A stretch of 31,788 nt of DNA from the IMG/VR virus record IMGVR_UViG_3300025769_000494, positions 1 through 31,788 of that record. The stretch is one strand, 5' to 3'. The notes under the pieces are model-generated. The model was not told the origin of the DNA. It did no database searches and worked only from the letters and a program-made list of their open reading frames with translations. The position numbers and the translations under genes are program-made. This stretch comes from a virus. Below, in pieces: positions 356-31,569 of the stretch (the first letter of the stretch is position 1; each line of letters begins with the position of its first letter).

Positions 356-988
356 ATGAAAAAACTAATCACAACAATAATTTTAATCTTCACATTAACT
401 AACGTATATTGTACGGAACCATCAGATACTTTACACCCATTTTATATAGATTCATTAGGACAAGTAAAATTAACTGAATATGATATCGATTTTTTACAAC
501 AACTAGTTTTTAAAAAATATAATGAATATAGGGTTAAAAATGGTTTAAACACCTGTGAATGGTTCGAAGACTCTATAAACGGGTCTTACCAACATTCAAA
601 ATATATAGCAGAAAAAGACGTTAATAATGAAGGAAACCTATTTCACGCAAAAACTGTTAGAGAAAATTGCCACTGGCGTTTTGGTTTTGGTGGTACATTA
701 GAAATATATAATAATAACCATATCGAAAAATATTATAGTGGACAAACTTATGATGGGTTATCAACATCCATATTAGAAAGTTGGATAGATTCTAAACCCC
801 ATAATGAAAATCTTCTAAATAAGTCTAACACCCATTTTGAAGTAGGTGTATTCATTAAAGAAGAATATAATAAAGGGTATAAAGAGGCAGTATACCTCGA
901 TGATGAAAAATTTCTTTTAATTCAAGATTCACATTATTACCACAAAAGAAAATGTTATGGATTATATGCAACGGCTAGATTTTACTAG
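356..988 (+). CDS. Secreted CAP/SCP-domain protein
   Basis: A 210-residue protein on the strand opposite to all other convincing genes. The first 19 residues (MKK, a hydrophobic run to about residue 18, then Cys19) look like an export signal; VYC is a poor lipobox, so a lipoprotein is possible but unproven. The rest fits the CAP fold (SCP, PR-1, allergen V5): YNEYRVKNGL at 55-64 as the first helix, a His in YQHSKYIAEKD (H80), H97 near the loop, GGTLEIY with E115, and ILESWIDSKPHNENLL (139-154), which matches the W-x-x-S-x-x-H-x-x-N-L-L signature. CAP proteins are usually extracytoplasmic; their biochemical roles vary, and none is proven here. It converges with gp25, and the two genes share the palindrome CTAG at 985-988 as their TAG stops. 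The roughly 100-bp leader is very A+T-rich with no clear promoter. It may be a cargo gene acting on the host envelope or on competing phages; that is inference. Confidence 0.7.
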   Translation: MKKLITTIILIFTLTNVYCTEPSDTLHPFYIDSLGQVKLTEYDIDFLQQLVFKKYNEYRVKNGLNTCEWFEDSINGSYQHSKYIAEKDVNNEGNLFHAKTVRENCHWRFGFGGTLEIYNNNHIEKYYSGQTYDGLSTSILESWIDSKPHNENLLNKSNTHFEVGVFIKEEYNKGYKEAVYLDDEKFLLIQDSHYYHKRKCYGLYATARFY

Positions 989-1364: not shown

Positions 1365-2084
1365 TTAAGTTTTATATTCCCATTTATAACCACCCGCAGT
1401 TTTTTTCTTTCCAGTACAAACCTGAGAGATATTACTAACATTTATATTAAAATATTCACCAGCCATAGTTAGAGATTCCCACTCTTTTATTAAATTACCT
1501 TTTTTATCTATTTGTAAAACTTTCTTCCTAAGTTTTTTTAATGTTTCTTCACTATGTTTTTTACCTTTCCTATGACTAGGTTTACCTTTTTTAGCCTCAC
1601 TCAACTTTCTTCTCCACTCTTCACTAAATTTCTTACCCTTATTATACCCAATACACCCTTTTTTCTTTTCAGACATCTTTTTTTTACTTTCTTCAGTATG
1701 TTTTTTACCTAACATATTGGTATTACCTTTATTTCTATTAGATAACCATTTACTAAATTCTTCAGAATGTTTGATGATACCTCCACCACCATTATTACTA
1801 TTTACCAACTCAAAACCCCAATTTCTAAACAAACTAATATAAAAGCATTCCCAAAACTTCCATTCGTCTTGTGGTACCACATCAATAATAACAGATTTTA
1901 TACCATAGTTTTTAGATGAAATCCACGTTGTTCTTTTATTCTTATATGGGTTAGTCTTAGACTCATATATATGCTTACTTAACCTATAATTAAGTTTCTT
2001 TGTGGTTACACCAATATATCTGATGTTATCAACATCATCAATACTAACTAACCCATATATATTTATAGTCCTTCCTTCTGCCAT
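1365..2084 (-). CDS. Free-standing GIY-YIG homing endonuclease with NUMOD3 and NUMOD1 motifs
   Basis: A 239-residue protein with a GIY-YIG nuclease domain at the N-terminus: NIYGL (8-12), RYIGVT (21-26), a basic helix with R33 and H37, and ECFYI (about 79-83) supplying the acidic residue. The middle carries basic NUMOD3 DNA-binding repeats built on G-K-K/x-H-S/T-E-E-x-x-x-K-(M/L) (for example LGKKHTEESKKKMSE, KGKKFSEEWRRKLSEAKKGK and KGKKHSEETLKKLRK). The C-terminus has a NUMOD1-like segment (KVLQIDKKGNLIKEWES, then a helix-turn-helix-like YFNINVSNISQVCTG). Such enzymes cut cognate alleles lacking the element and so spread. It is not inside an intron: NrdB, the 139-residue gene and gp25 are all intact. 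It lies just after the nrd operon terminator and immediately before gp25, so its target is probably the nrd-gp25 junction or a nearby gene in a relative. Confidence 0.9.
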   Translation of the reverse strand: MAEGRTINIYGLVSIDDVDNIRYIGVTTKKLNYRLSKHIYESKTNPYKNKRTTWISSKNYGIKSVIIDVVPQDEWKFWECFYISLFRNWGFELVNSNNGGGGIIKHSEEFSKWLSNRNKGNTNMLGKKHTEESKKKMSEKKKGCIGYNKGKKFSEEWRRKLSEAKKGKPSHRKGKKHSEETLKKLRKKVLQIDKKGNLIKEWESLTMAGEYFNINVSNISQVCTGKKKTAGGYKWEYKT

Positions 2085-11135: not shown

Positions 11136-11858
11136 TTATCTTTCTGTTTTCGGATTAAAACTTCCTTTTATATCTGATTCATTATATTCATCATCGATAT
11201 CTTGTTGTGTTAAAGTATATTCTTTTTCTTCTTCTTCACCAGTTGCATCATAACCTTCTCTGTCTGCCCAAAAGTCAGTTAATTTTACACTATATGGAAA
11301 TGAATCCATAGATCTCATACTTAACTTTTCAGTTGGGTTTGGGTTTCTTTCAATAACCTCTTTTTCCAACTCATCCATTTTGTTGATGATTGCATCCATA
11401 CCCGTAAGTTTTTGTTCCAATTCTGAAAACTTACCTAATAAGTCATCAATTTTAGATGATGCTTGTGAAGCCTCTTGTTTTGCTTCTTCAGTTTTGTCAA
11501 CAATATCAGTTACATCAACTTCAACCTCTCCTTCATCACTCATTGGTTCTTCTTCCATAGCTGGCTCATCAGCAAATTCATCTTCCACTGGTAATTCACC
11601 ACCAAACGGATCTTCACCTAAATCCATATCATCACCACCTTCTTCTGTTGGTTCTTCTACAGGTTCTTCTACAGGTTCTTCTGTTGGTTCAACAACATCA
11701 GTCACTTCTTCTTCCTGTTCAGTAACATCTAATAACAAATCTTCAGTGTTACCTTCTGGATTATCACCTTCTTTCTCCATCTCATCGACAAAGAAAGAGT
11801 ATTCTAAGATTGTATTAAATCTTTTTACTTCCTCGTTTAAAATTTTTTTATCTCCCAT
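11136..11858 (-). CDS. Acidic coiled-coil protein of unknown role
   Basis: A 240-residue protein that I do not recognise. It has three parts. The first 25 residues are a mixed-charge helix (ILNEEVKRFNTILEYSFF). Residues about 30-125 are extremely acidic, with EEPVEEPVEEPTEE arising from a 12-bp DNA repeat. Residues about 128-180 form a predicted coiled coil (VDKTEEAKQEASQASSKIDD, LLGKFSELEQKLTGM, IINKMDELEKEVIE). The C-terminus is again charged and includes SFPYSVKLTDFWADREGYD. The composition would suit a capsid scaffold, a virion core protein or a DNA-mimicking partner, but the sequence does not decide between them. Its ATG overlaps the stop of the preceding small gene (TAATG), so translation is probably coupled. 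A hairpin terminator follows. Confidence 0.75.
   Translation of the reverse strand: MGDKKILNEEVKRFNTILEYSFFVDEMEKEGDNPEGNTEDLLLDVTEQEEEVTDVVEPTEEPVEEPVEEPTEEGGDDMDLGEDPFGGELPVEDEFADEPAMEEEPMSDEGEVEVDVTDIVDKTEEAKQEASQASSKIDDLLGKFSELEQKLTGMDAIINKMDELEKEVIERNPNPTEKLSMRSMDSFPYSVKLTDFWADREGYDATGEEEEKEYTLTQQDIDDEYNESDIKGSFNPKTER
11642..11690. repeat. 12-bp tandem repeat in the acidic protein gene
   Basis: The unit GTTCTTCTACAG on the plus strand occurs twice exactly (11651-11674), followed by a third copy with a changed end and flanked by a partial copy. It encodes repeated E-E-P-V/T units. The size in codons (4) keeps the frame, so copy number can vary without disrupting the protein. Confidence 0.8.
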
Positions 11859-13122: not shown

Positions 13123-16100
13123 TTACTGTGCAGTGCTCTCAGTTCCACCAATGTAGTCGGTTTTTAAATTAAAAGTTTCAACTATTTTTTCTAAAATTTT
13201 TGTTCTCTTATTAATGGTTTCATCCCCTTGACCAGGATTTACTTTTTTACTAACTAATTGGGCTTCAGCAACCGTACCTTTATTTAATGCACCAATACCA
13301 CTATTTTTCCACCATATTAAAGAGGCAACAACCGATCTCTCAATACCCTTTTCTTCACCCTTGTTAAATAATTTATCTATTTCTAAATAACCATCTTTAG
13401 TATTATATTGTGTTGTAATATTACTAAATAAATCTCCAGCATTTCCTGTTAATCCATCAGATGTAGTATCATTTTGTAGATTCTTATATTTAGACCTACC
13501 AGTAACTTGTATAAACCCTCTTCCTTTGAATCTTAGCCCATCTCCTTTTTCGGTATTACCTAATTTACTATTATTTTCATAATTAAGTTGCGCACCATCA
13601 CCATTTGTCGCAACACCATCACTATTAGGTTTTGGTTTATTCCATATTTCAACACTATAATTAAATTTACCAGATTCAAAAGCACATTGTGCTAAGAAGT
13701 TACATACTTCAGAATTAGTTTCCAAACCAAATTTAGGTAACCATTTAATTAATGAGTTAGATAAGAATTGAGTACTGATATTTGAACCACCAATATCTGT
13801 CAATAACTGATTTAAATTAGTTTGACTTAATCTAGTTGTAACATCAAATCCACCTGTAGGGTTAAGTATTTGAAAGTTATTATTAACATCAGATTGAGCG
13901 TTAACGAAATTTTGTGCTTGTGACTTAATTGCAATTTCGTCAACCTCTTCAAAATTAATATTTAAAAATGTTGATGTATTTTCTTCTACAGGTGTACTAA
14001 ACCTAGATTGTCTTAAACCACTAAATGAAGTAGTCATATGGTTAGGTGTAATACTATGTTCAACACTAGTTATTAAATAAGCCCCTCTATAGAAAGGTAC
14101 GTTATCTAACTGAAAGTATGAAAGAGGTTGTATATTCATATTACCAATACCATCAACTGAACATTTATAAGATCTTACAGAAAATAAATCATATAAATCA
14201 TTACCCTTCTGTACCCTTTGAGTACCACCTCTTTTATCTACCATCTCAGATAGTTGTCTGTAGTATTCTGCAGTAGGTTTGTGTTCTGTTTGGTTTAATG
14301 ATACATTATTAAAGAACGATTGGTTTTCACTACCAAAAGCAACTCTAAAGGCAACTAAAGAATCTTGATTAATTTTATCTTCACTTTTAGTAAATTCTTT
14401 AGTCACTTCTCCCTTATTAAAATATAACCCATCATCTTTTAACCCTCTATTATCATTTATAGCTAAACTTTTAGATTGCCCACCAGCATATATACAAACA
14501 TAGGCTGGACCAGTATTATTTTCTTCTAAAGTAGTAAAAGGTTTAAACATATCTTTTACACCCTTATCTGTTTTAAAGTCAATATATGAAGGGAATATCT
14601 GAAATAAGAAATTACTATCTCTTAATATTTTAGAAATATATAAATTTAATTCATAAGATGTATCAGTTGCTAATGAAACAACACTATTTAAATTAATCGT
14701 TGCCTTATCCCCAATATCACTCCATGACCTATCTATAAACTTAAAATATTCAATTAAATCACTTTTTTCACCAACACAAGAGTTATAAATTTTACCATCA
14801 TCAGTTCCCGATATCCACTTATCATATAAACCTTTAAAATAATTGTAAACAGCTAATTTTATTTTATCATCATTAATAGTATTTAATTGACTATCATTTT
14901 CTACACCATTACCACTACTACCACTAGTTTCCTCTTTCTCTTTTTCTTCTAAAAGTTTATCAAAACCACTTTTAAAGTTATTTAAATAACTAGTTAAAGT
15001 ATCTTTAGGTATTTTAATTTCAAAATCTCTTTCTTCAAATGCATTAGGTGTAGGTACACCCATTAATGTGGTATTACTAATGTTATTTAATAATCTAACA
15101 CCCTTTTCATCTCTTTTATTGTTTGATAAGTCTTCATTTTCATTCTTATACGCACTAACTGCAGAATAAAAACTTTCCCAATTATCTCTACACCAATCAT
15201 TAAAGAATTCAATTAAATGTTCTTGAGTTTTTTTAGGTATTTTGTCTTTTATTTTAATTGTCTCTGAAAAGTTAGTATCTTTCCATACACCACCTAATTT
15301 AGTTATATACTCATCTTTAGACTTAATATCAATTTCACCAACGTTTTTTACTGGATCAGTAGATTCATTTAATCTCCATAATATGGATCCAACCCAAGCA
15401 ACATAAACTTTAGGTAATTTTAAAACTTTAGATACCTTTTGCTCATTTTTAACGTTAACCACAAATTTATCCAAAATTTCTTCAAACCTTTTAAATGGTA
15501 ATGTATTTAACATTAAAAACGCCCTAACCTTTTCATTTGTATTACCAGACCATAATTGGCTTTTTTTAAGTGAAATTATTTTACTATTTTTATCTCTTAA
15601 TACACTAATATTATCAGTACCACCTAAATCATCTATAGAATTAAACTTTAAACTATACGAATTATCATACTCAACATTACCAATAATATTTGTTTGTACA
15701 TCTTTACTCCAAACTAAATAAGAAATATTATGATTATATACATAATTAGCATTTAAATAAAAAATACCATTACTAATATCTTTGTTTTTAGGTTGTAATG
15801 AAGAAGGTTTATCTGAAGAAAGTATATCTTTATAGGTAGTCTTAACTTTAGTATCTAAATCATTTCTATTGTTAGTTAAAGGGTTTAATTTAGGTCCAAC
15901 TATTAGATAAAGATTTTCATTGTTATTGTCTGTTACCTCTCCAGAAACATCAAAACCATTTATTTCATTAATTTTCAATACATAGTTATCACCATTTTCT
16001 TCTATAATTTTATTATTAGAAGATGTACCTGAATTACTTAAACAATAATCTATTGCTTGCTGACTATTGAAATTCTCACTTATAACTTGTGGATAATCTT

Positions 16101-18192
16101 TATTTTTAATATTACTCACTGCAATAGCACCTTCTAAATAAGAATAACTATTAGTAAATTTAACATCATTAACATTAGTAAAAGAATATAAAGTTAAAGC
16201 CCTTGTAATAGTAGTTTCATAAAAACTATTAGGTATATCATTAGTTGTATCTTTCCAAGGGAAATTACCACTAAATTCCGCATAAGGGTTATCACTATAA
16301 TCTAAAATATTAAATGGTAACCAATTATCTATTACATTATTTTGTTTTACCTGAGCTACTAATTTTCTATTTTCTTTTAATTCTTTAGAAGTTTGTGTAT
16401 AACCTTTAATAACATCTTCAACAAATTTTATTTCAGGGAATAATGATTTATCTATACTATTAACACTACCTAACCAAACTTGTGTTGGTTTACTATCATC
16501 CCCATTATCTTTTACAACTTCAGGCCATGGGCATAAAATTTCAGACTTTGGACTGCTATCTGTTATATACCTAGAAGTAACCACCAATTGATCATACCTT
16601 TTTTTCTTAGTCTCTTGACTTATATCACTTATATCAGATATGGCTTGAATCATTGCCTGAACATTATTAATGATAATACTAAAAACATCTCTAATTTTAG
16701 GGTTAAAATTTAATTGTTTACTTATTTCTTTATTAATTTCTTCTATAAGTTCTTCTTTTTTACTATCTATTTCTTTTTTTACCTTTCTCTCTAATTTAGC
16801 AATTTCATCTCTCATTAATGAAAAATCATAAATCACCACATTAGTATTTCCTGTAAATCCACGTTTAGATTCGTATAGTTTTAGAAAATCTTCAGGTTTA
16901 TTAGGTGTAATGTTTTCAGGTCTAAAGTCAGTTTTTATAATTGACTCTTCTCTAGTTTCAGTAACTGCTTGATATATTGTACTCCCACTATTATAGAAGT
17001 TTTCTGTAAAAGAATTAAATGTGCAAGGTTCGTCACCACATTCTAGTATGGGGTTAACATCAACCTCATTATTTTCATCAATTTTTAATATATAATTATT
17101 TAACTGATAATCTTTTAGATTATTATCTAAAACATATTTTTTATAGTTACTATATAATCTATTACCTTCTCTAACAAAAGTATTAAAATAATCTTTATCT
17201 GCAGATTTAATAATTATAATATCACGTATAGAAAGAATATTCCTACCAATAGTAAAATTAGGACTACTAAAAATACTTGTGTTTAATACTTCTCTATCTT
17301 TTTTAAAGTCTTTTTCATCATTAACATTTTTAGTTTCCATTGTTATGGGTGTACCCACATAACTCCTTAGACTACCTAACACACTTTTTATGGAATTCAG
17401 TTTTTTTAACTCATCAAAACCTTTACTATTAGTTTGTAATGATGCAATATCAATATCTACTTTAGAAATGTTATTTAAGAAATCACTGAGTTTTGGTGTG
17501 GTTACCTTTTCCCCTTCAAAATTTGTAATGGTTGTACCACTTAACCTTTCTAAACCCTCATTAGTTCCATCAATCACACCTAAAACATGTTGTAATTTTA
17601 TGTCCGTTAAAAAAGCACTCTGAAAACCCACAAATTTAGCACTAATTTCAAAATTACCATCACTACCATTAAATTGTGATTTCCAATCTAACATATGTAA
17701 ACAATACGTTACAGGTTGACCATAATACCCTTTAACGGTTAATTCGAATATCGGATATGGTAATTTAAAAAATACACTATAAGGTGATTCTCTATTATCA
17801 CTATCGATAACATCAAATAATGAACCCCCCCTTAAATCAATAAATGTTATATTAACTTGTGGTACTAAACTAGCATTATAAGTTATATCTATACTTTTAA
17901 TACCAAAACCTTCTAGTGTACCTTCTTTATTCTGATCAATCGATAACCCACCTATCTCTGTATAATCTGTGGTTGCATAAGAAGTACCATCATTGGCGTT
18001 AGAATCTAATTTAGTCGCAATAAAATTAACTTCAGTTTCATCACCATTTGTACCACATCTTTCTTTAGATCTAGCAGTTAACTTCACATAAATAAATAAA
18101 TCTTCTACTGGTATAACTTCCCTTCCAGGCGGATTAGGGTCAACTAATTTAAGAAAACCATTATCTTCTACTTTTGCTTCATTCGATGCCAT
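13123..18192 (-). CDS. Baseplate hub protein with C-terminal GH19 (chitinase/endolysin-like) domain
   Basis: A 1689-residue virion protein that seems to combine the jobs T4 splits between gp27 and gp5. Near the N-terminus, GFGIKSIDITYNASLVPQV and VFFKLPYPIFELTVKGYYG (about 105-160) resemble the tube-like domain of hub proteins. At about 1352-1395, YFQLDNVPFYRGAYLITSVE, HSITPNH and TSFSGLRQSR match the closing domain of gp27/late-control-D hubs. Residues about 1456-1675 are GH19-like: FLAQCAFESGKF with candidate catalytic E1506, YENNSKLGNTEKGDGLRFKG, and GRGFIQVTGRSKYKNL. The central 1100 residues are long, Asn/Lys-rich and unassigned, with a coiled stretch near 455-480. The role would be to plug the tail tube and cut peptidoglycan during entry. 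The ATG overlaps the end of the gp53-like gene by 14 nt. Hub assignment is an inference from the domain patterns and context; the GH19 match is strong. Confidence 0.85.
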   Translation of the reverse strand: MASNEAKVEDNGFLKLVDPNPPGREVIPVEDLFIYVKLTARSKERCGTNGDETEVNFIATKLDSNANDGTSYATTDYTEIGGLSIDQNKEGTLEGFGIKSIDITYNASLVPQVNITFIDLRGGSLFDVIDSDNRESPYSVFFKLPYPIFELTVKGYYGQPVTYCLHMLDWKSQFNGSDGNFEISAKFVGFQSAFLTDIKLQHVLGVIDGTNEGLERLSGTTITNFEGEKVTTPKLSDFLNNISKVDIDIASLQTNSKGFDELKKLNSIKSVLGSLRSYVGTPITMETKNVNDEKDFKKDREVLNTSIFSSPNFTIGRNILSIRDIIIIKSADKDYFNTFVREGNRLYSNYKKYVLDNNLKDYQLNNYILKIDENNEVDVNPILECGDEPCTFNSFTENFYNSGSTIYQAVTETREESIIKTDFRPENITPNKPEDFLKLYESKRGFTGNTNVVIYDFSLMRDEIAKLERKVKKEIDSKKEELIEEINKEISKQLNFNPKIRDVFSIIINNVQAMIQAISDISDISQETKKKRYDQLVVTSRYITDSSPKSEILCPWPEVVKDNGDDSKPTQVWLGSVNSIDKSLFPEIKFVEDVIKGYTQTSKELKENRKLVAQVKQNNVIDNWLPFNILDYSDNPYAEFSGNFPWKDTTNDIPNSFYETTITRALTLYSFTNVNDVKFTNSYSYLEGAIAVSNIKNKDYPQVISENFNSQQAIDYCLSNSGTSSNNKIIEENGDNYVLKINEINGFDVSGEVTDNNNENLYLIVGPKLNPLTNNRNDLDTKVKTTYKDILSSDKPSSLQPKNKDISNGIFYLNANYVYNHNISYLVWSKDVQTNIIGNVEYDNSYSLKFNSIDDLGGTDNISVLRDKNSKIISLKKSQLWSGNTNEKVRAFLMLNTLPFKRFEEILDKFVVNVKNEQKVSKVLKLPKVYVAWVGSILWRLNESTDPVKNVGEIDIKSKDEYITKLGGVWKDTNFSETIKIKDKIPKKTQEHLIEFFNDWCRDNWESFYSAVSAYKNENEDLSNNKRDEKGVRLLNNISNTTLMGVPTPNAFEERDFEIKIPKDTLTSYLNNFKSGFDKLLEEKEKEETSGSSGNGVENDSQLNTINDDKIKLAVYNYFKGLYDKWISGTDDGKIYNSCVGEKSDLIEYFKFIDRSWSDIGDKATINLNSVVSLATDTSYELNLYISKILRDSNFLFQIFPSYIDFKTDKGVKDMFKPFTTLEENNTGPAYVCIYAGGQSKSLAINDNRGLKDDGLYFNKGEVTKEFTKSEDKINQDSLVAFRVAFGSENQSFFNNVSLNQTEHKPTAEYYRQLSEMVDKRGGTQRVQKGNDLYDLFSVRSYKCSVDGIGNMNIQPLSYFQLDNVPFYRGAYLITSVEHSITPNHMTTSFSGLRQSRFSTPVEENTSTFLNINFEEVDEIAIKSQAQNFVNAQSDVNNNFQILNPTGGFDVTTRLSQTNLNQLLTDIGGSNISTQFLSNSLIKWLPKFGLETNSEVCNFLAQCAFESGKFNYSVEIWNKPKPNSDGVATNGDGAQLNYENNSKLGNTEKGDGLRFKGRGFIQVTGRSKYKNLQNDTTSDGLTGNAGDLFSNITTQYNTKDGYLEIDKLFNKGEEKGIERSVVASLIWWKNSGIGALNKGTVAEAQLVSKKVNPGQGDETINKRTKILEKIVETFNLKTDYIGGTESTAQ

Positions 18193-24333: not shown

Positions 24334-24969
24334 TTAACTTAATTCAACAAACTTAAAGTAACAATCTTGAGGATCTCCCTCAACAACATTTAAGTTAGGG
24401 TTTTTATATCTACTGTATAACAAGTTAACATCTCCCTTTTGATCTTTATAGGGTTCTAATTTTTTATATTCTAACTTAATAAATGTAGTATCTGGAAAAC
24501 TATTTGTTTTTAATAAAATATACTTACTATCTTCATCTAAACCAACAACCTTAAAGTACATTGTACCTAATAAGTTTCTTTGAAACTCTGGTGATTTTAA
24601 AGATTCTATATCCAGATTAATTTTTTTCTTAAACTCAATCACCGCTTTTTTATATGGTAACTCACTTTCTTTTTTCTCTTCTATTTGATTGGCTAATGAT
24701 TCTAACCTCTCTATTTTTGCCAGTAATTCATCTATTTTTGATAGGGTGTCTTTTTTATCTTTAATATCATCAAGTTCATCACTAGCCTTTCCTATCTCAT
24801 CTTCTATTGACTTAAATGCTTTATTATATAATTCTTTAGGTAGTGAAGTGATTAACTTACCAAATACCTTTAACCCTTGTATAATTTGCTCATTTAATAA
24901 AAGGTCAATATTTTGATTTATTTCTTCTATTAATGACTCTTGATTTTTAATTTTATCGTTTAAGTTCAT
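24334..24969 (-). CDS. Coiled-coil tail protein of unknown role
   Basis: A 211-residue protein not assignable to a named family. Residues about 1-130 form a long Lys/Glu-rich coiled coil (for example KIKNQESLIEEINQNIDLLL, IEDEIGKASDELDDIKDKKD, LSKIDELLAKIERLESLANQ). Residues about 135-211 form a small beta-rich domain: GTMYFKVVGLDEDSKYILLK, FIKLEYKKLEP, VNLLYSRY and CYFKFVELS at the end. It lies between the gp26-like region and the tape measure and is probably co-transcribed with the tape measure (18 bp gap). An assembly chaperone or tail-tip protein would fit the position and shape; T4 gp28 occupies a comparable place, but no similarity can be claimed by eye. Confidence 0.75.
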   Translation of the reverse strand: MNLNDKIKNQESLIEEINQNIDLLLNEQIIQGLKVFGKLITSLPKELYNKAFKSIEDEIGKASDELDDIKDKKDTLSKIDELLAKIERLESLANQIEEKKESELPYKKAVIEFKKKINLDIESLKSPEFQRNLLGTMYFKVVGLDEDSKYILLKTNSFPDTTFIKLEYKKLEPYKDQKGDVNLLYSRYKNPNLNVVEGDPQDCYFKFVELS

Positions 24970-26100: not shown

Positions 26101-27444
26101 TTAGTTATTTTTAAGTCTATCTTCCAAATGTTGTTTATACGTATTTTCAACATCATCTTTAATTTTCATAAAATCACTTATTTCAAATTCATTGACTTTT
26201 TCAGTAATTAAGTCTTTTAATTCTTGTCCTGTCATTGTCATTCCATCACTTGTTGTAAATGTCTTTTCAAGAAATTCTTGATCATCCAATCCTGACGTTA
26301 CATCTTCAACAAAATTATCAACAATACCACCACATCTCCAATCAGTTAATCCAAATGTTGGGACTACTTCTGCAGGATCTATACCCATGTTTTTAAAGTA
26401 TGACAGATATGTTGTTAATAAAAACAGAAATAAATCACCAAGACCATCAAAAAAATCAGATGACGTTGCACCATCTGTTGATTCCATAATTTTATTCTCA
26501 TAACCTATAATACTATCATTTTCTTTTACCATGTTATCAGCACCCTTACTAGATTGTGCATCACAATAGAGTTTAAGAATTTTTGCTTTTACAAACAACA
26601 AACCAAAATAAGCTACCCAATAATTCCTTGTATACATCTTAAATGGAACCAATAATGCTTCCCAAACTTTACCAGTGATAGTGGTTCTATTTCTCAATCT
26701 ATTATAAATGGTTGTAAAATCTTCTATAAAAGGCAAATCTTTTTTCACTTTAATTATATTAAGAAACATTCTCAATGGTTCTAATTTTTTATTTATTGCA
26801 CCATACATTTTTTGTGCTTTTGGTGGTAACATATCTACAAAAGCACTAGATGTAGGACCATCCTTAAACAATTCTTCATATCTTTTGTAAAAAGTATTAC
26901 CTTGTCCATCATCTACTAAAGAAAGTAATCTGTTAATTTCAGGCTTACTTTGTAGTGATGTGATTGTGTAATGACCATTAGAGATATCTTTAGCATATTT
27001 TTCAAATACTGCAATATATTCATTAACAATTTCTACATAAGCTTCTTTCAAGGCTTCGCTATTATTTATGGTATTATTACGTCCTTTTATACTGTTCATA
27101 AACACTTTTTTTAAGTCATTAGATAGACTTAAGTCATTAGATAGACCTCCTGATATATATTTTTGAAAACCTTCCGTTGATTTCGTTGATGGAAGGTTTA
27201 ATCTATTAGTAAATAGTTTCTTAGCATTTGATTCTATTTGATTTAACACATCCTTAATCACTGTTTGATTAGTCTTTGATTTTAATTGTTTAACTATATC
27301 AGCCACTATATCATCCACAATAGATGAAAGCCCACCACCTTCATTTAATAATTCTTTATTAACAAGATTACCATACAAGTTATCTTCAGATATTAATTCT
27401 TTAAATCTTTTAAGTGACTCTTCTATTTTATTTTTATTTTCCAT
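26101..27444 (-). CDS. Unknown 447-residue protein of the tail cluster
   Basis: I do not recognise this protein. The N-terminus (IEESLKRFKELISEDNLYGN, then VNKELLNEGGG) is a charged helix with L-x-E steps that could be sites for a prohead-type protease. Residues about 38-110 look helical and contain a six-residue duplication (LSNDLS-LSNDLK) made by an 18-bp DNA repeat. The middle includes RLRNRTTITGKVWEALLVPF (247-266) and a hydrophobic stretch NYWVAYFGLLFVKAKILKLY (272-291), possibly a buried or membrane-interacting helix. Another hydrophobic run, FLFLLTTYLSYFKNMGI, lies near 330-350. The end is charged (EKVNEFEISDFMKIKDDVEN). Its place after the 880-residue gene and before the gp26-like gene suggests a virion or injected protein. 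Confidence 0.7.
   Translation of the reverse strand: MENKNKIEESLKRFKELISEDNLYGNLVNKELLNEGGGLSSIVDDIVADIVKQLKSKTNQTVIKDVLNQIESNAKKLFTNRLNLPSTKSTEGFQKYISGGLSNDLSLSNDLKKVFMNSIKGRNNTINNSEALKEAYVEIVNEYIAVFEKYAKDISNGHYTITSLQSKPEINRLLSLVDDGQGNTFYKRYEELFKDGPTSSAFVDMLPPKAQKMYGAINKKLEPLRMFLNIIKVKKDLPFIEDFTTIYNRLRNRTTITGKVWEALLVPFKMYTRNYWVAYFGLLFVKAKILKLYCDAQSSKGADNMVKENDSIIGYENKIMESTDGATSSDFFDGLGDLFLFLLTTYLSYFKNMGIDPAEVVPTFGLTDWRCGGIVDNFVEDVTSGLDDQEFLEKTFTTSDGMTMTGQELKDLITEKVNEFEISDFMKIKDDVENTYKQHLEDRLKNN
27111..27146. repeat. Perfect 18-bp tandem duplication in the 447-residue gene
   Basis: TTAAGTCATTAGATAGAC occurs twice with no gap and no mismatch, duplicating the residues SNDLSL in frame. The absence of divergence suggests a recent slippage event. 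Confidence 0.9.
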
Positions 27445-27463: not shown

Positions 27464-30106
27464 TTACCAACAAGATTGATAATTGTTACAGCAAAACTCT
27501 TTAGTAGACTTATTATTAGTAATCTTATTCCAATCGTTCTTCAACGACTCTCTAGCTTTATATTCATTACTACTTGTATCCCAAATTCTATAATTAATAT
27601 CATTAAATAGGAATTCTTTAAACTTTTTGCGATACGCTGATATTACTTTACATTTATTTGTGACAGTAAATCTATCCCAAACCTTTTTAAGTGATACAAG
27701 GTTTTCATTACTAATATAAGTATTAAAATTACCCGCAATCTCATCAACCTCATTATCGGTAAGGGTATTATTTTTAATTATGTTTTCATAATATTCCACC
27801 ATTTTATCAAAAGAAGTGAAATTACCAATGGTTTCTCTTTTATTGGTGCTGTAATTTAATACAGAAGGTGCAATTTTTATATCATTTCCCGTAATAACCC
27901 ATGGACTGCTTTCCAAAAATACACCATCTGGTGATTTTATAATTAATTTTCTAACTGGTTTTGTAAACATAAAGAAATAAGAATAATAATCTGTATTCTT
28001 AGGTGATAGTTTTATCATACAGGCATTATTATTTTTTTGTGAAAACCTAATTTCTGTATTATAATTAGAATACTTTTTTAATGTGTTTTCTAATTCAAGA
28101 ACTTTATCGTCTTTTTGACATGCAGAAACTCCTGTTGGAGTAGTTTGTTCATTGAATAACCTCCTATATTGACTTTCTGTTATTTTAATCTTTTTTGTTT
28201 TCATTATACTTTCTCCCATTAATTTTTTAATATACGCATCAAACTCAGCATCAGTCATGTTTTTTAATCTTTCTGTGGTTTCTACTGCTTCTCTAGCAAC
28301 TGATTCATTTTCTTTTTGCAAATTTGTATCAATTTCTCCGGTGGATAGAGTATCACTTGATGTAGTAATCATATTTTTAACCATTTGAGTTACTCTTAGA
28401 TCTATAAATTCTTTTTCAAGTTCATCTCCATTAAAATCTTTTTTTATATCTTCTATAGATGAAAAAATTTCTTTTTGTTCAGATGAGTCATATCCTTTAT
28501 CGGTTAATAAATCTTTTAAAATTTGTTTTTCTTTTTCATTTTTATTTTTTAGTGTCTGATATTTTGAAATACCAACACCGAAACCAAATTGGACTCCCAT
28601 ATTGATTAACATTTCTTTAATTTCTTTAGATTTTAATGCTTTATTAATATCATTGTCATATTTATTAAGTATTTTAATAAAATTAGGGTCTTTCATTAAC
28701 TTATTAATGGTGTGCCTTTTTACCCCATTTTTTTCATATGTTTTAACAATATCATCAAATATTTGTGCCTGTTTTTCTAATGAACTAACATCAATGTTCT
28801 TTAAGTTATTAATAACCTTACCGACATTATTTTTTTGTTTTTCTGTTAAACCTTTAGTGTGCTTGGAAACTACTTTATCGATTGAATCTATATTTTTTAA
28901 CCCATCCATCTTATGTAATTCTTGTACAATATTACTAGCCGCCTTTGTTGTTTTAGGTGTTGTAAGTTTAAAAATACTTCTTGCCTCACCAAATCCTGGT
29001 ATAACAGAGGCAAATGAAATCGCCGCCATAACTAGATCACCACTTACTGAAGAATCTTCATCATGTTCACCAAATAAAGCGTGAGTTAAATATGAAAAAC
29101 CATTTGCAAAATCTAATATGGCAGATAATGCAGTACCTGGACCAGGAACAACCGAAACTGCCATAGATAGGTTATCTGTAACACATTGTGTATATCTCCA
29201 GTAATCACCACTTTTTCTATATTTTGAACAATCAAATGCTTCATATATAGAAGAGTTATCTATATTATATTCTTTTTCTTTTTTTCTATGTCTAAGGAAT
29301 ATCTTCCTTCTATTCTCTAATTCTTGTGGACTTACATCGTAACCTTGTTCAATAGTAGGGCCCTTTCCTACAAAGAATACTGCGCTACTATTATTCGTTG
29401 TATTAAGTGTTTTTGCTTCACCAGATCTACAAACACAGTAACTATATAATTCGTTATCCCAGTGACCACCATACATTGGATGTTCCTTTTGTTCTTTTAA
29501 TCCAAAATAATCATCCCAATAAGAACCCTTTTCAGTAACTATAGTAGCTAATTCACCTCTACTTTTACAATATTGATTAATTTTAGTATCACAACTAACA
29601 CAATTTTCTGAGTGGTTTGGTATAGTAAGAGAACCACCAAACTTAGAAGACTTACTTTTAACACCCATACCATTATTACAGATATAATGATATGTCGGTG
29701 GAGATATTCTTCTAAACTCACCATCTATGGTTTTACCTTTAGTGTGATACTCTTCATCAGTATTCATAAAACCTTTAACAAAATTATAAGCGTCATCACC
29801 TATTAAAGAAGATACTTCATTATATACTCTTCTATCTTTAATTGCTTCAAAAGCAGCTTGCGCCCAAGCCTCATTATCACCAAATAACCCCTCAGAGTTT
29901 TTTAATACAGTCGCAATATATTCAGGTGTTGGATTACTTTTAAGTTTATTATAATCCATCTTAAACCCTGTCTCGCCATTTTGTTTTTTATTTTTTAATG
30001 GTTCTCTATTCTTCTGATTCTGTTGAATGTCGAATTTGGTATCACCTTGTTCAGATAATAACAATGACTTATATTGTGATTCGGTTATTTTTAATACCTT
30101 TTTCAT
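27464..30106 (-). CDS. Large unknown protein with two TESQY tags (probable two-protein fusion)
   Basis: An 880-residue open frame with no assignable enzyme family. It starts MKKVLKITESQYKSLLLSEQ. Residues 60-122 are helical (EYIATVLKNSEGLFGDNEAW, YNFVKGFMNTDEEYH). Cysteines at 143, 169, 172, 180, 224 and 226 (CVSC, YCVC) could bind a metal. Residues about 312-377 form a hydrophobic helical hairpin with VVPGPGTALSAILDFANGF and VMAAISFASVIPGFGEA, a style seen ahead of toxin domains in polymorphic toxins. A long helical Lys/Glu-rich part follows (about 390-630). At residue 635 a second methionine begins MKTKKIKITESQYRRLFNEQ, a near copy of the N-terminus, with GGGAG eight to nine nt before it (ATG at 28202-28204). 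The last 245 residues are a beta-type domain with Cys near the end (FCCNNYQSCW). It may be two genes fused in frame, or one frame with an internal start. A virion or injected role is inference. Confidence 0.72.
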   Translation of the reverse strand: MKKVLKITESQYKSLLLSEQGDTKFDIQQNQKNREPLKNKKQNGETGFKMDYNKLKSNPTPEYIATVLKNSEGLFGDNEAWAQAAFEAIKDRRVYNEVSSLIGDDAYNFVKGFMNTDEEYHTKGKTIDGEFRRISPPTYHYICNNGMGVKSKSSKFGGSLTIPNHSENCVSCDTKINQYCKSRGELATIVTEKGSYWDDYFGLKEQKEHPMYGGHWDNELYSYCVCRSGEAKTLNTTNNSSAVFFVGKGPTIEQGYDVSPQELENRRKIFLRHRKKEKEYNIDNSSIYEAFDCSKYRKSGDYWRYTQCVTDNLSMAVSVVPGPGTALSAILDFANGFSYLTHALFGEHDEDSSVSGDLVMAAISFASVIPGFGEARSIFKLTTPKTTKAASNIVQELHKMDGLKNIDSIDKVVSKHTKGLTEKQKNNVGKVINNLKNIDVSSLEKQAQIFDDIVKTYEKNGVKRHTINKLMKDPNFIKILNKYDNDINKALKSKEIKEMLINMGVQFGFGVGISKYQTLKNKNEKEKQILKDLLTDKGYDSSEQKEIFSSIEDIKKDFNGDELEKEFIDLRVTQMVKNMITTSSDTLSTGEIDTNLQKENESVAREAVETTERLKNMTDAEFDAYIKKLMGESIMKTKKIKITESQYRRLFNEQTTPTGVSACQKDDKVLELENTLKKYSNYNTEIRFSQKNNNACMIKLSPKNTDYYSYFFMFTKPVRKLIIKSPDGVFLESSPWVITGNDIKIAPSVLNYSTNKRETIGNFTSFDKMVEYYENIIKNNTLTDNEVDEIAGNFNTYISNENLVSLKKVWDRFTVTNKCKVISAYRKKFKEFLFNDINYRIWDTSSNEYKARESLKNDWNKITNNKSTKEFCCNNYQSCW
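28202..28218 (-). promoter_or_regulatory. Internal start with Shine-Dalgarno-like sequence inside the 880-residue frame
   Basis: On the minus strand the sequence reads TGGGAGAAAGTATAATG. GGGAG lies about 8 nt before an in-frame ATG whose product would begin with the second TESQY tag. Most genes in the window have A-rich leaders without such a site, so it stands out. The product would be 246 residues, ending at 27464. Confidence 0.45.
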
Positions 30107-30123
30107 TAAGATTAATCTTTCTT

Positions 30124-30132
30124 TATAAATAT
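30124..30132 (-). promoter_or_regulatory. Candidate promoter element upstream of the 880-residue gene
   Basis: Exact ATATTTATA followed by AAGAAAG ends 17 nt before the ATG, just downstream of the tube gene terminator, so it is well placed to start a new transcript. Confidence 0.5.
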
Positions 30133-30140
30133 TACATTAA

Positions 30141-30172
30141 ACAAAAAAAGCCTTCCATTACTGAAAGGCTTT
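30141..30172 (-). terminator. Rho-independent terminator after the tail tube gene
   Basis: On the minus strand AAAGCCTT and AAGGCTTT form an 8-bp stem around a 10-nt loop, followed by TTTTTTTGTTT. It lies 26 bp after the tail tube stop, consistent with a separate, abundant tube transcript. Confidence 0.88.
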
Positions 30173-30198
30173 CTATATAATATTTTCTTATCTAATTT

Positions 30199-30687
30199 TT
30201 AGAACACGTTGATTGCTCTATCGAATCTTAAAGTACAAGTGATTTCAGCTAAATCAGATGATGAATAATCTAAATTACCGAAGTCAGCATCATTTAATTG
30301 TGTACCTTGTAAAATCCACTTTTGTACAACTACACCAGTTGGGTCTAACATTTCTAATTCAATATCTTTCTTATAACCTGCAGCGTAACCTTGTCTACCT
30401 GTTACTGATTCAGAGTGTAAACGAACCCATTCCATTAATGCTTGTGTAGCTGATGGACCGATTGGATCTCTAAATGTTACTTGAATACTATCCCACTTAA
30501 ATCTACCAATCACATAAGTTGATGTATTTAAAAAAGGAATTTCTGTTTCGTCACTCGTATATTTTGGTCTAGATGTTGTTGACACCCACCACTCTTGAAT
30601 ACCCAATTCATCAGGGAATCTTAATATAAATCGATTCTTTCTTAACGGCTCGTAAGGTACGGGCATTCTCATTAACATATCTGCCAT
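30199..30687 (-). CDS. 19: Tail tube protein gp19-like
   Basis: A 162-residue protein, almost exactly the length of T4 gp19 (163). Evidence is the tube-type pattern: PVPYEPLRKNRFILRFPDEL (9-28), WWVSTTSRPKY (33-43), a beta strand with FKWDSIQVTFRDPIGPSATQ (63-82), LMEWVRLHS (84-92), then YKKDIELEMLDPTGVVVQKW (104-123) and ILQGTQLNDADFGNLDYSSSDLAEI near the end. Hexamers stack to form the inner tube through which DNA passes. It is flanked by an upstream ATATTTATA element and a strong terminator, so it probably forms its own high-level late transcript. The tagged HAD gene separates it from the sheath gene, whereas these two are usually adjacent. Confidence 0.93.
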   Translation of the reverse strand: MADMLMRMPVPYEPLRKNRFILRFPDELGIQEWWVSTTSRPKYTSDETEIPFLNTSTYVIGRFKWDSIQVTFRDPIGPSATQALMEWVRLHSESVTGRQGYAAGYKKDIELEMLDPTGVVVQKWILQGTQLNDADFGNLDYSSSDLAEITCTLRFDRAINVF

Positions 30688-30724
30688 AATTCTATTGTTT
30701 TAATTTGTTTTTATTCTTTTTATT

Positions 30725-30733
30725 TATAAATAT
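30725..30733 (-). promoter_or_regulatory. Candidate promoter element upstream of the tail tube gene
   Basis: Exact ATATTTATA continues as AATAAAAAG. The run also contains TATAAATA in gene orientation (30721-30728), the T4 late-promoter consensus, ending 33 nt before the ATG. This is the best late-promoter candidate in the window. Confidence 0.55.
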
Positions 30734-30750
30734 TTAGTTTTTAAAAAAAA

Positions 30751-31569
30751 TTATCTTTCGATAACAATTCTTTTTTTCTTTGTGTCTTTTGGATCTGAAG
30801 TATCGTAAACCAAAAATCTTACACTAGGGTAAGTTTTCTTTAATTCATTACTAATATATTCTTCAGCCTTTTTAACATTACCTAAGTCATCATCACTAAA
30901 TCCTACACTTAATCCTTTATATTCAGGATTTAATTCTAATTTTTTTGCTACTCTAACCACTCTACTAACAAAATCTCTTAATGCGATTGTTTTAGCAATT
31001 TCTGGATTCTCAGCTCCACCTTCAGCACCAAACTTTTCTTTAAATTCATCTGAAGATACTGGATGATAATCTTGTAGACTTAAATACTGATCGATTGAAG
31101 TGCCTCTTAAATTATCTTCCATTGTTCTTTTTTCATCATCAGAGAATGTTAAATCGATTAATAGTCTTGTACCATCTCTAAGTGCTTTTGGTGATTGTCC
31201 TCTAGCCGTTATGATAGAAAAGTCGTTACCATAGATTAAAGCTTCTTTAAACTTATCGAAACTAGGTCCGAATTGTCCATTTCTAACTGCTTTTTGTGTA
31301 TCTCTCATAAAAGCATCATAATCTCTAAAATCAGCAAATGCCTCTAAAGGGTTATCGTTTAATAATCTATATTCTGTACCTACCAAATGTCTCATCTCAG
31401 CAAACTCTGAAGTAGAAACATCTACGGGAACATATTCACCACCAACCTTCTTTTCTAAATGAATGTGTGTTGGCATATTAAGAATGTTATCATCCCAGTC
31501 AAAAGAATACGCTCTTTTTTGAAACTCTAACAATGTCTTATATTGCGATTCTGTTAATTTTAATTTCAT
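30751..31569 (-). CDS. HAD-superfamily hydrolase-like protein with N-terminal TESQY tag
   Basis: A 272-residue protein placed between the sheath and tube genes. It starts MKLKLTESQYKTLLEFQKR, a tag shared with the 880-residue protein, and the catalytic domain begins at once: YSFDWDDNIL has the HAD motif I D-x-D (D24, D26), SIITARGQSP has the motif II Thr (T121), and GLSVGFSDDDLGNVKKAEE (219-237) gives the motif IV acidic cluster. A Lys of motif III lies somewhere in 194-210. A cap-like insert occupies about 35-110. HAD enzymes are mainly Mg-dependent phosphatases; the substrate (nucleotide, polynucleotide end, protein or small molecule) cannot be read from the sequence. Because the tag precedes the enzyme domain immediately, a cleavable targeting peptide is plausible. 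It is read from an A+T leader after a hairpin. Confidence 0.8.
   Translation of the reverse strand: MKLKLTESQYKTLLEFQKRAYSFDWDDNILNMPTHIHLEKKVGGEYVPVDVSTSEFAEMRHLVGTEYRLLNDNPLEAFADFRDYDAFMRDTQKAVRNGQFGPSFDKFKEALIYGNDFSIITARGQSPKALRDGTRLLIDLTFSDDEKRTMEDNLRGTSIDQYLSLQDYHPVSSDEFKEKFGAEGGAENPEIAKTIALRDFVSRVVRVAKKLELNPEYKGLSVGFSDDDLGNVKKAEEYISNELKKTYPSVRFLVYDTSDPKDTKKKRIVIER

Follow-up and report, generated by a model that had tools for sequence, protein, structure and literature searches.

In phage T4, the internal proteins IPI-III and Alt carry capsid-targeting sequences (CTS), which are short N-terminal propeptides on unrelated proteins that end in L/I-x-E. The internal-protein tags are 10-19 residues long and gp21 cuts after L/I-x-E; with Asp at the cut, processing is inhibited but targeting still takes place, and the residues for targeting and for processing are separable (PMC9026906). 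In phage P1, an N-terminal signal of more than 9 and fewer than 30 residues on DarB sends this antirestriction protein, as well as a reporter, into the head (PMC9024508). Many inner head proteins of SPN3US and phiKZ lose N-terminal propeptides to the prohead protease, and two diverged paralogues share an identical 15-residue N-terminus (PMC5694885). Here we analyze a virus record, IMGVR_UViG_3300025769_000494 from IMG/VR (positions 1 to 31,788; 31.8 kb, hereafter the window), which is a fragment of a T4-like contractile-tail phage genome, and a short peptide with the core TESQY that recurs in it. We estimate a probability of about 0.77 that this peptide works as a T4-type capsid-targeting sequence that is cleaved off, new in its sequence and occurring in several classes.

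The TESQY pattern has exactly three matches within the window, all on the minus strand, and the reversed pattern has none. Translations of the open reading frames (ORFs) place them where a preliminary description of this DNA had reported them. The 880-aa ORF (27464-30106) begins MKKVLKITESQYKSLLLSE followed by Gln, the same frame has MKTKKIKITESQYRRLFNE followed by Gln at residue 635, and an ORF for a HAD protein (30751-31569) begins MKLKLTESQYKTLLE followed by Phe. The Ser codon differs between the three sites (TCA, AGT and TCG), which suggests that the peptide has been kept by selection and not copied recently as DNA. The preliminary description compared the tag ends with the T4 rule L/I-x-E; two of the three window tags fit strictly, and the internal one does not. 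It did not include the next gene (447 aa, 26101-27444), which bears a second class of tag, or the further tagged genes of the relatives. Tags of the TESQY type (class A) are 15-19 aa long in the window, and class B tags are longer, at about 35 aa. The principal features are as follows.

31525..31569, minus strand: class A N-terminal tag of the HAD protein, MKLKLTESQYKTLLE; predicted cut after Glu15
30751..31524, minus strand: putative HAD phosphatase-like cargo body, with invariant DWDDN, TAR and SDDDxxN
30050..30106, minus strand: class A N-terminal tag of the 880-aa ORF, MKKVLKITESQYKSLLLSE; predicted cut before Gln20
28205..30049, minus strand: cargo body A, residues 20-634 of the 880-aa ORF; no database match
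28148..28204, minus strand: internal class A tag of the 880-aa ORF, MKTKKIKITESQYRRLFNE; internal in the homologue of L007 too
27464..28147, minus strand: cargo body B, residues 654-880 of the 880-aa ORF
27340..27444, minus strand: class B tag of the 447-aa ORF, MENKNKIEESLKRFKELISEDNLYGNLVNKELLNE; predicted cut before GGGL
26101..27339, minus strand: cargo body of the 447-aa ORF; no convincing domain

To compare these tags we used ten relatives (contigs of 54-146 kb), one of which is a near-duplicate and was left out of the counts, leaving nine plus the window. A seed-free test covered 277 families with similarity undetectable beyond residue 30 and counted pairs of segments with a BLOSUM score of at least 42. 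The N-terminal 30-mers gave 86 pairs, compared with 4 for middle segments, 8 for the C-terminus and 5 for residues 61-90, which bears out the earlier claim that the tag is common to otherwise unrelated proteins. As in T4, therefore, a short N-terminal peptide is shared by proteins with unrelated bodies. Profiles made without the leading Met (cut-off iE<1e-3) matched 21 times at N-termini and 2 times elsewhere for class A, and 15 and 0 times for class B (NEEIxRIKxLF..ERLYGNL); their seeds were taken from the same genomes, so these counts are a census and not an independent test. Class C (xLIRKILKEE) and class E (LTESDLKRIVKRVLxE) are less clean, with 12 N-terminal and 4 other matches for class E. 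In one conserved family (L100:13253-13918, L081:157-726 and L076:285-695), a class E tag-like segment is internal, starting at residues 112-141, and not N-terminal. Had the motif been confined to the interior of folds, the preliminary description would have fallen; the matches are mostly N-terminal, and internal class A copies lie mainly at domain junctions.

With shorter loci included, the census comprises 193 tagged proteins in 71 families, 36 of them class D. This class is a loose T4-like regular expression with false positives that include the ribonucleotide reductase small subunit of the window, and it was kept out of the statistics. One 127-kb relative (G002) has tags on at least 20 of its 120 proteins. 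A within-genome version of the sharing test recovered the IPII/IPIII tag from a stretch of T4. Flavobacterium phage immuto (vB_FspM_immuto, NC_055915; grown on Flavobacterium sp. LMO8) gave 17 N-terminal pairs and 0 elsewhere, some of them secretion signals, with several tag families; two crass-like phages and part of Microcystis phage Mel-JY01 (about 50 kb each) showed no N-terminal sharing. The tag families of immuto are its own (FDLKKFLxENKL, KKQILSEQFRRMQKLAGIITE and KKSQLRxIIKE), not TESQY, and at least 9 of its proteins are predicted to carry the classes FDLKKFLxENKL, KKQILSEQFRRMQ and KKSQLRxIIKE. With a 28-aa tag as the query, tblastn against a phage collection returned no matches, the tag being too short for BLAST.

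The ends of the tags resemble the site of a prohead protease. When L/I-x-E is counted over all proteins, it is raised just twofold between residues 6 and 20, and L/I-x-x-E is raised too. Because this count is unspecific, we defined tags by the TESQ core alone, sought the motif within 12 residues after the core and compared it with 2000 shuffles. L/I-x-E follows the core in 86 of 110 tags, many of them homologous and thus not independent, compared with 24.6 +/- 4.0 (maximum 39) after shuffling. L/I-x-D is depleted (4 vs 9.7 shuffled), and the control motifs L/I-x-K, E-x-L/I and L/I-x-N/Q are not enriched after the core in the same test. In tagged proteins of the relatives, Gln (7.2x over background) and Ser (3x) are enriched directly behind the tag Glu, and the capsid protein site has Ala there. 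The capsid protein sites (LLTE/A, LINE/A, IVSE/A and LISE/A) align with T4 FLTE/A. Peptidase_S77 was found in three relatives and in the two nearest isolates, immuto and Mel-JY01, with weaker matches, under the curated cut-off, in four megaphages. An S77 protease, together with a gp23-type capsid protein bearing an L/I-x-E maturation site, is thus present in relatives and nearest isolates, which answers for the relatives the question raised earlier of whether a gp21-type protease is encoded. The scaffold was also considered as a source of support; its L/I-x-E excess in the relatives is only mild, and we set it aside as evidence.

The HAD protein allows the tag to be followed through one family. 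A scan of IMG/VR identified 80 loci with HAD homologues, and L/I-x-E precedes the fold in all 48 distinct homologues that have their own start. The front part of the tag is variable, with TE missing in several (MKIKLSQYQKSLLLE, MKLRLTKHQNKLLLE and MSQQIIITKEQLKRIGGLIEE), and the tag is joined to the enzyme by linkers of differing length; the Gln of the TESQ core is invariant. In an AlphaFold2 model, pLDDT is 56-60 over the first 20 residues and about 90 beyond them, and the first HAD strand runs from residue 17, right after Glu15, so the model places the tag outside the enzyme fold. DWDDN, TAR and SDDDxxN are invariant in the family, supplying the DxD of motif I, the Ser/Thr of motif II and the acidic motif IV within a Rossmann-like fold. 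The best Foldseek matches are HAD phosphatases and are weak (E 0.013-0.05), Pfam gives no hit, and Foldseek does not resolve the substrate class. Judged by its motifs, the cargo is a putative HAD-superfamily phosphatase. Homologues also occur in four megaphages of 635-735 kb, two of which bear T4-like N-termini instead (MDILRFDQFIRES and MIKKFNQFLEN).

Tags appear to be exchanged as units. Two genes in L050 begin with unrelated tags, one of class B (..NTSMLHE/QRRPFQSLKRAFTAG) and one of class A (..GGGILTE/QRRPLQSLKRAFTAG), and their bodies are alike from the residue after the predicted cut. L028 contains a second such pair (..KKVITE/GAGWKALWQ and ..KKIITE/GAGWKALWQ), and in both pairs the breakpoint is at or beside the predicted cut. 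Tags also occur within fused ORFs. L007 encodes a homologue of the 880-aa ORF that is fused likewise, with an A part about 41% identical; in L059, a tagged metallopeptidase-like part is joined to a HAD protein via NKLIITESQYKLLKE, without a Met; fusions in G004, G006 and L021 also have an internal tag without a Met; and L047, L049 and L054 have a class A tag at the front and a class B tag inside. Such tags are on separate genes of the same island in L008 and G001. This pattern agrees better with proteolysis between cargo units than with a signal linked to the start of translation. Most tagged proteins have no known domain, few are named by Pfam or PHROGs, and neither database gives a reliable domain for the 880-aa and 447-aa proteins. 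Some match M23 peptidase, phage lysozyme, peptidoglycan-binding, LysM, DUF192 and tape-measure families, and two HExxH metallopeptidase-like proteins carry tags of different classes (class A in L059, class C in L123:9149).

These tags share with the T4 CTS the short N-terminal propeptide on unrelated proteins that ends in L/I-x-E, the S77 prohead protease, the capsid protein cut at L/I-x-E/A and the disfavored Asp at the cut. The TESQY tags differ in sequence from the T4 peptide MKTYQEFIAE (N-termini from NC_000866), and so we regard them as the same kind of device and not as members of the T4 sequence family. They also differ in having several classes, at least 20 tagged proteins in one genome, internal tags in fused ORFs, and mostly Gln or Ser, not Ala, after the cut (P1'). 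Like P1, these phages have an N-terminal signal that would direct entry into the head, although the P1 Dar N-termini have no consensus (PMC9024508), unlike the widely shared tag here. SPN3US and phiKZ are alike in that N-terminal propeptides of ejection proteins are cut by the prohead protease, and different in that several propeptides exceed 100 residues and the reported cut motifs are A-x-E and S-x-E (PMC5694885). A literature search found CTS for T4 and P1 and the giant-phage propeptides, and nothing on the present tags or tag strings among the papers searched, which does not prove novelty.

We propose that the tag forms a short amphipathic N-terminal helix that would bind the prohead core (scaffold) and bring the protein behind it into the head during assembly. 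Cleavage after L/I-x-E at the tag end, by the gp21-type prohead protease, would then free the cargo within the head for ejection with the DNA. The several tag classes would do one job, with cargo genes gaining, losing and swapping tags, and fused ORFs such as that of the 880-aa protein would be split by the protease at the internal-junction tag into separate cargo proteins. Packaging, scaffold binding, cleavage and injection are all steps that we infer from sequence. The T4-like cleavable targeting suggested in the preliminary description gains support at this level from the L/I-x-E enrichment, its fixation in the HAD family, and tag swaps that break at the predicted cut.

Several observations weigh against this proposal. 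The window fragment has no head genes, so a protease of its own is not seen there; its internal tag terminates in F-N-E; and two more distant megaphage HAD homologues have no clear tag. The cargo island sits within the tail module, and among the tagged proteins are some with matches to cell-wall hydrolase or tail families. The HAD gene is flanked by the end of the tail sheath gene and by the tail tube gene, and is followed in order by the 880-aa ORF, the 447-aa ORF and a gp26-like gene, and in the relatives the interval from tail tube to gp26-like gene is highly variable and often full of tagged ORFs. The main rival is therefore that the tag loads the tail (tube lumen or baseplate) and not the head, with L/I-x-E a by-product of helix composition or the site of another protease; the cell-wall enzymes among the cargo (M23 peptidase, lysozyme and LysM, together with tape-measure matches) and the position of the island speak for this location. 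We consider it unlikely, since L/I-x-E is specific (L/I-x-D is depleted and the other control motifs are at or under chance) and is identical to the maturation site of the capsid protein in related phages, tagged genes cluster also upstream of the terminase and portal genes (G002, 1.7-33 kb), and megaphage HAD copies use T4-CTS-like tags.

The tag might instead bind the scaffold or another partner and stay uncut, the conserved Glu being part of the binding motif. The separable targeting and processing residues of T4 (PMC9026906) would allow this, and the TESQ core, with its Gln invariant in the HAD family, suggests a docking site. It is quite improbable, however, given that L/I-x-E does not change while spacing, core and linker do, that swap breakpoints fall at or beside L/I-x-E, and that Met-less tags recur at internal domain junctions. 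For the internal copy alone, the 880-aa ORF may represent two in-frame genes, the internal ATG being an independent start, or an incidental fusion, with no polyprotein cutting. We keep this as a tentative alternative for that copy: GGGAG stands 8 bases ahead of the internal ATG in the window and the tags of L008 and G001 are on separate genes, yet the fused ORF is kept in L007 at about the divergence given above, and the other fusions (L059, G004/G006 and L021) keep an internal tag without a Met. An origin by chance, by recent duplication or through a DNA-level signal close to the start codons is hardly credible even for tags this short, as it is contradicted by sharing far above all three within-genome controls, by Ser codons of both TCN and AGY type, and by the occurrence of tags on separate contigs and internally.

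Two further N-termini in the window may belong to the same set.

24889..24969, minus strand: possible tag of a 211-aa ORF, a helix ending LLNE then Gln; by eye, weaker
11742..11858, minus strand: weak class-B-like N-terminus (MGDKKILNEEVKRFNTILE..) of an acidic 240-aa ORF; iE 0.77, borderline

The 211-aa ORF is upstream of a putative tape-measure gene, and a similar ..LLxE(Q) ending recurs at the same position in the relatives. Searches of the PHROGs/Pfam type recognized tail tube, gp26-like, gp25 and gp53-like genes in the window. By eye, a GIY-YIG homing endonuclease-like ORF with repeated KKHSEE-type segments (1365-2084, minus strand) lies between the gp25 and ribonucleotide reductase genes, and a 1689-aa hub-like protein (13123-18192, minus strand) has a C-terminal part that looks chitinase/lysozyme-like and has no Pfam hit. 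Apparently the sole plus-strand gene of the window (356-988) has a signal-peptide-like start. In L066 (3524) and L068 (4898), a patatin-like phospholipase ORF (GGGSKGAFGGG..GTSTGS) was seen by eye upstream of the sheath gene.

A broader reading, on which we are evenly divided, is that capsid targeting by these tags constitutes a general delivery system, in which interchangeable tags, a common protease and cargo polyproteins would send tens of enzymes into the head and then into the host. Its cargo would include the HAD phosphatase, metallopeptidase-like proteins, cell-wall hydrolases and many proteins without an assigned function. Injected phage proteins are mostly unknown since their genes look unrelated, and a readable tag gives a checkable list of them, both in metagenomes and in the cultured phage immuto. 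If the proposed role is correct, the tag would predict the injected protein set of a phage from sequence alone. If the tags work across classes, they would offer labels ready for use in directing proteins to phage heads, a use that the T4 and P1 tags already have, and phage cargo polyproteins would, if the internal tags are cut, constitute a new arrangement.

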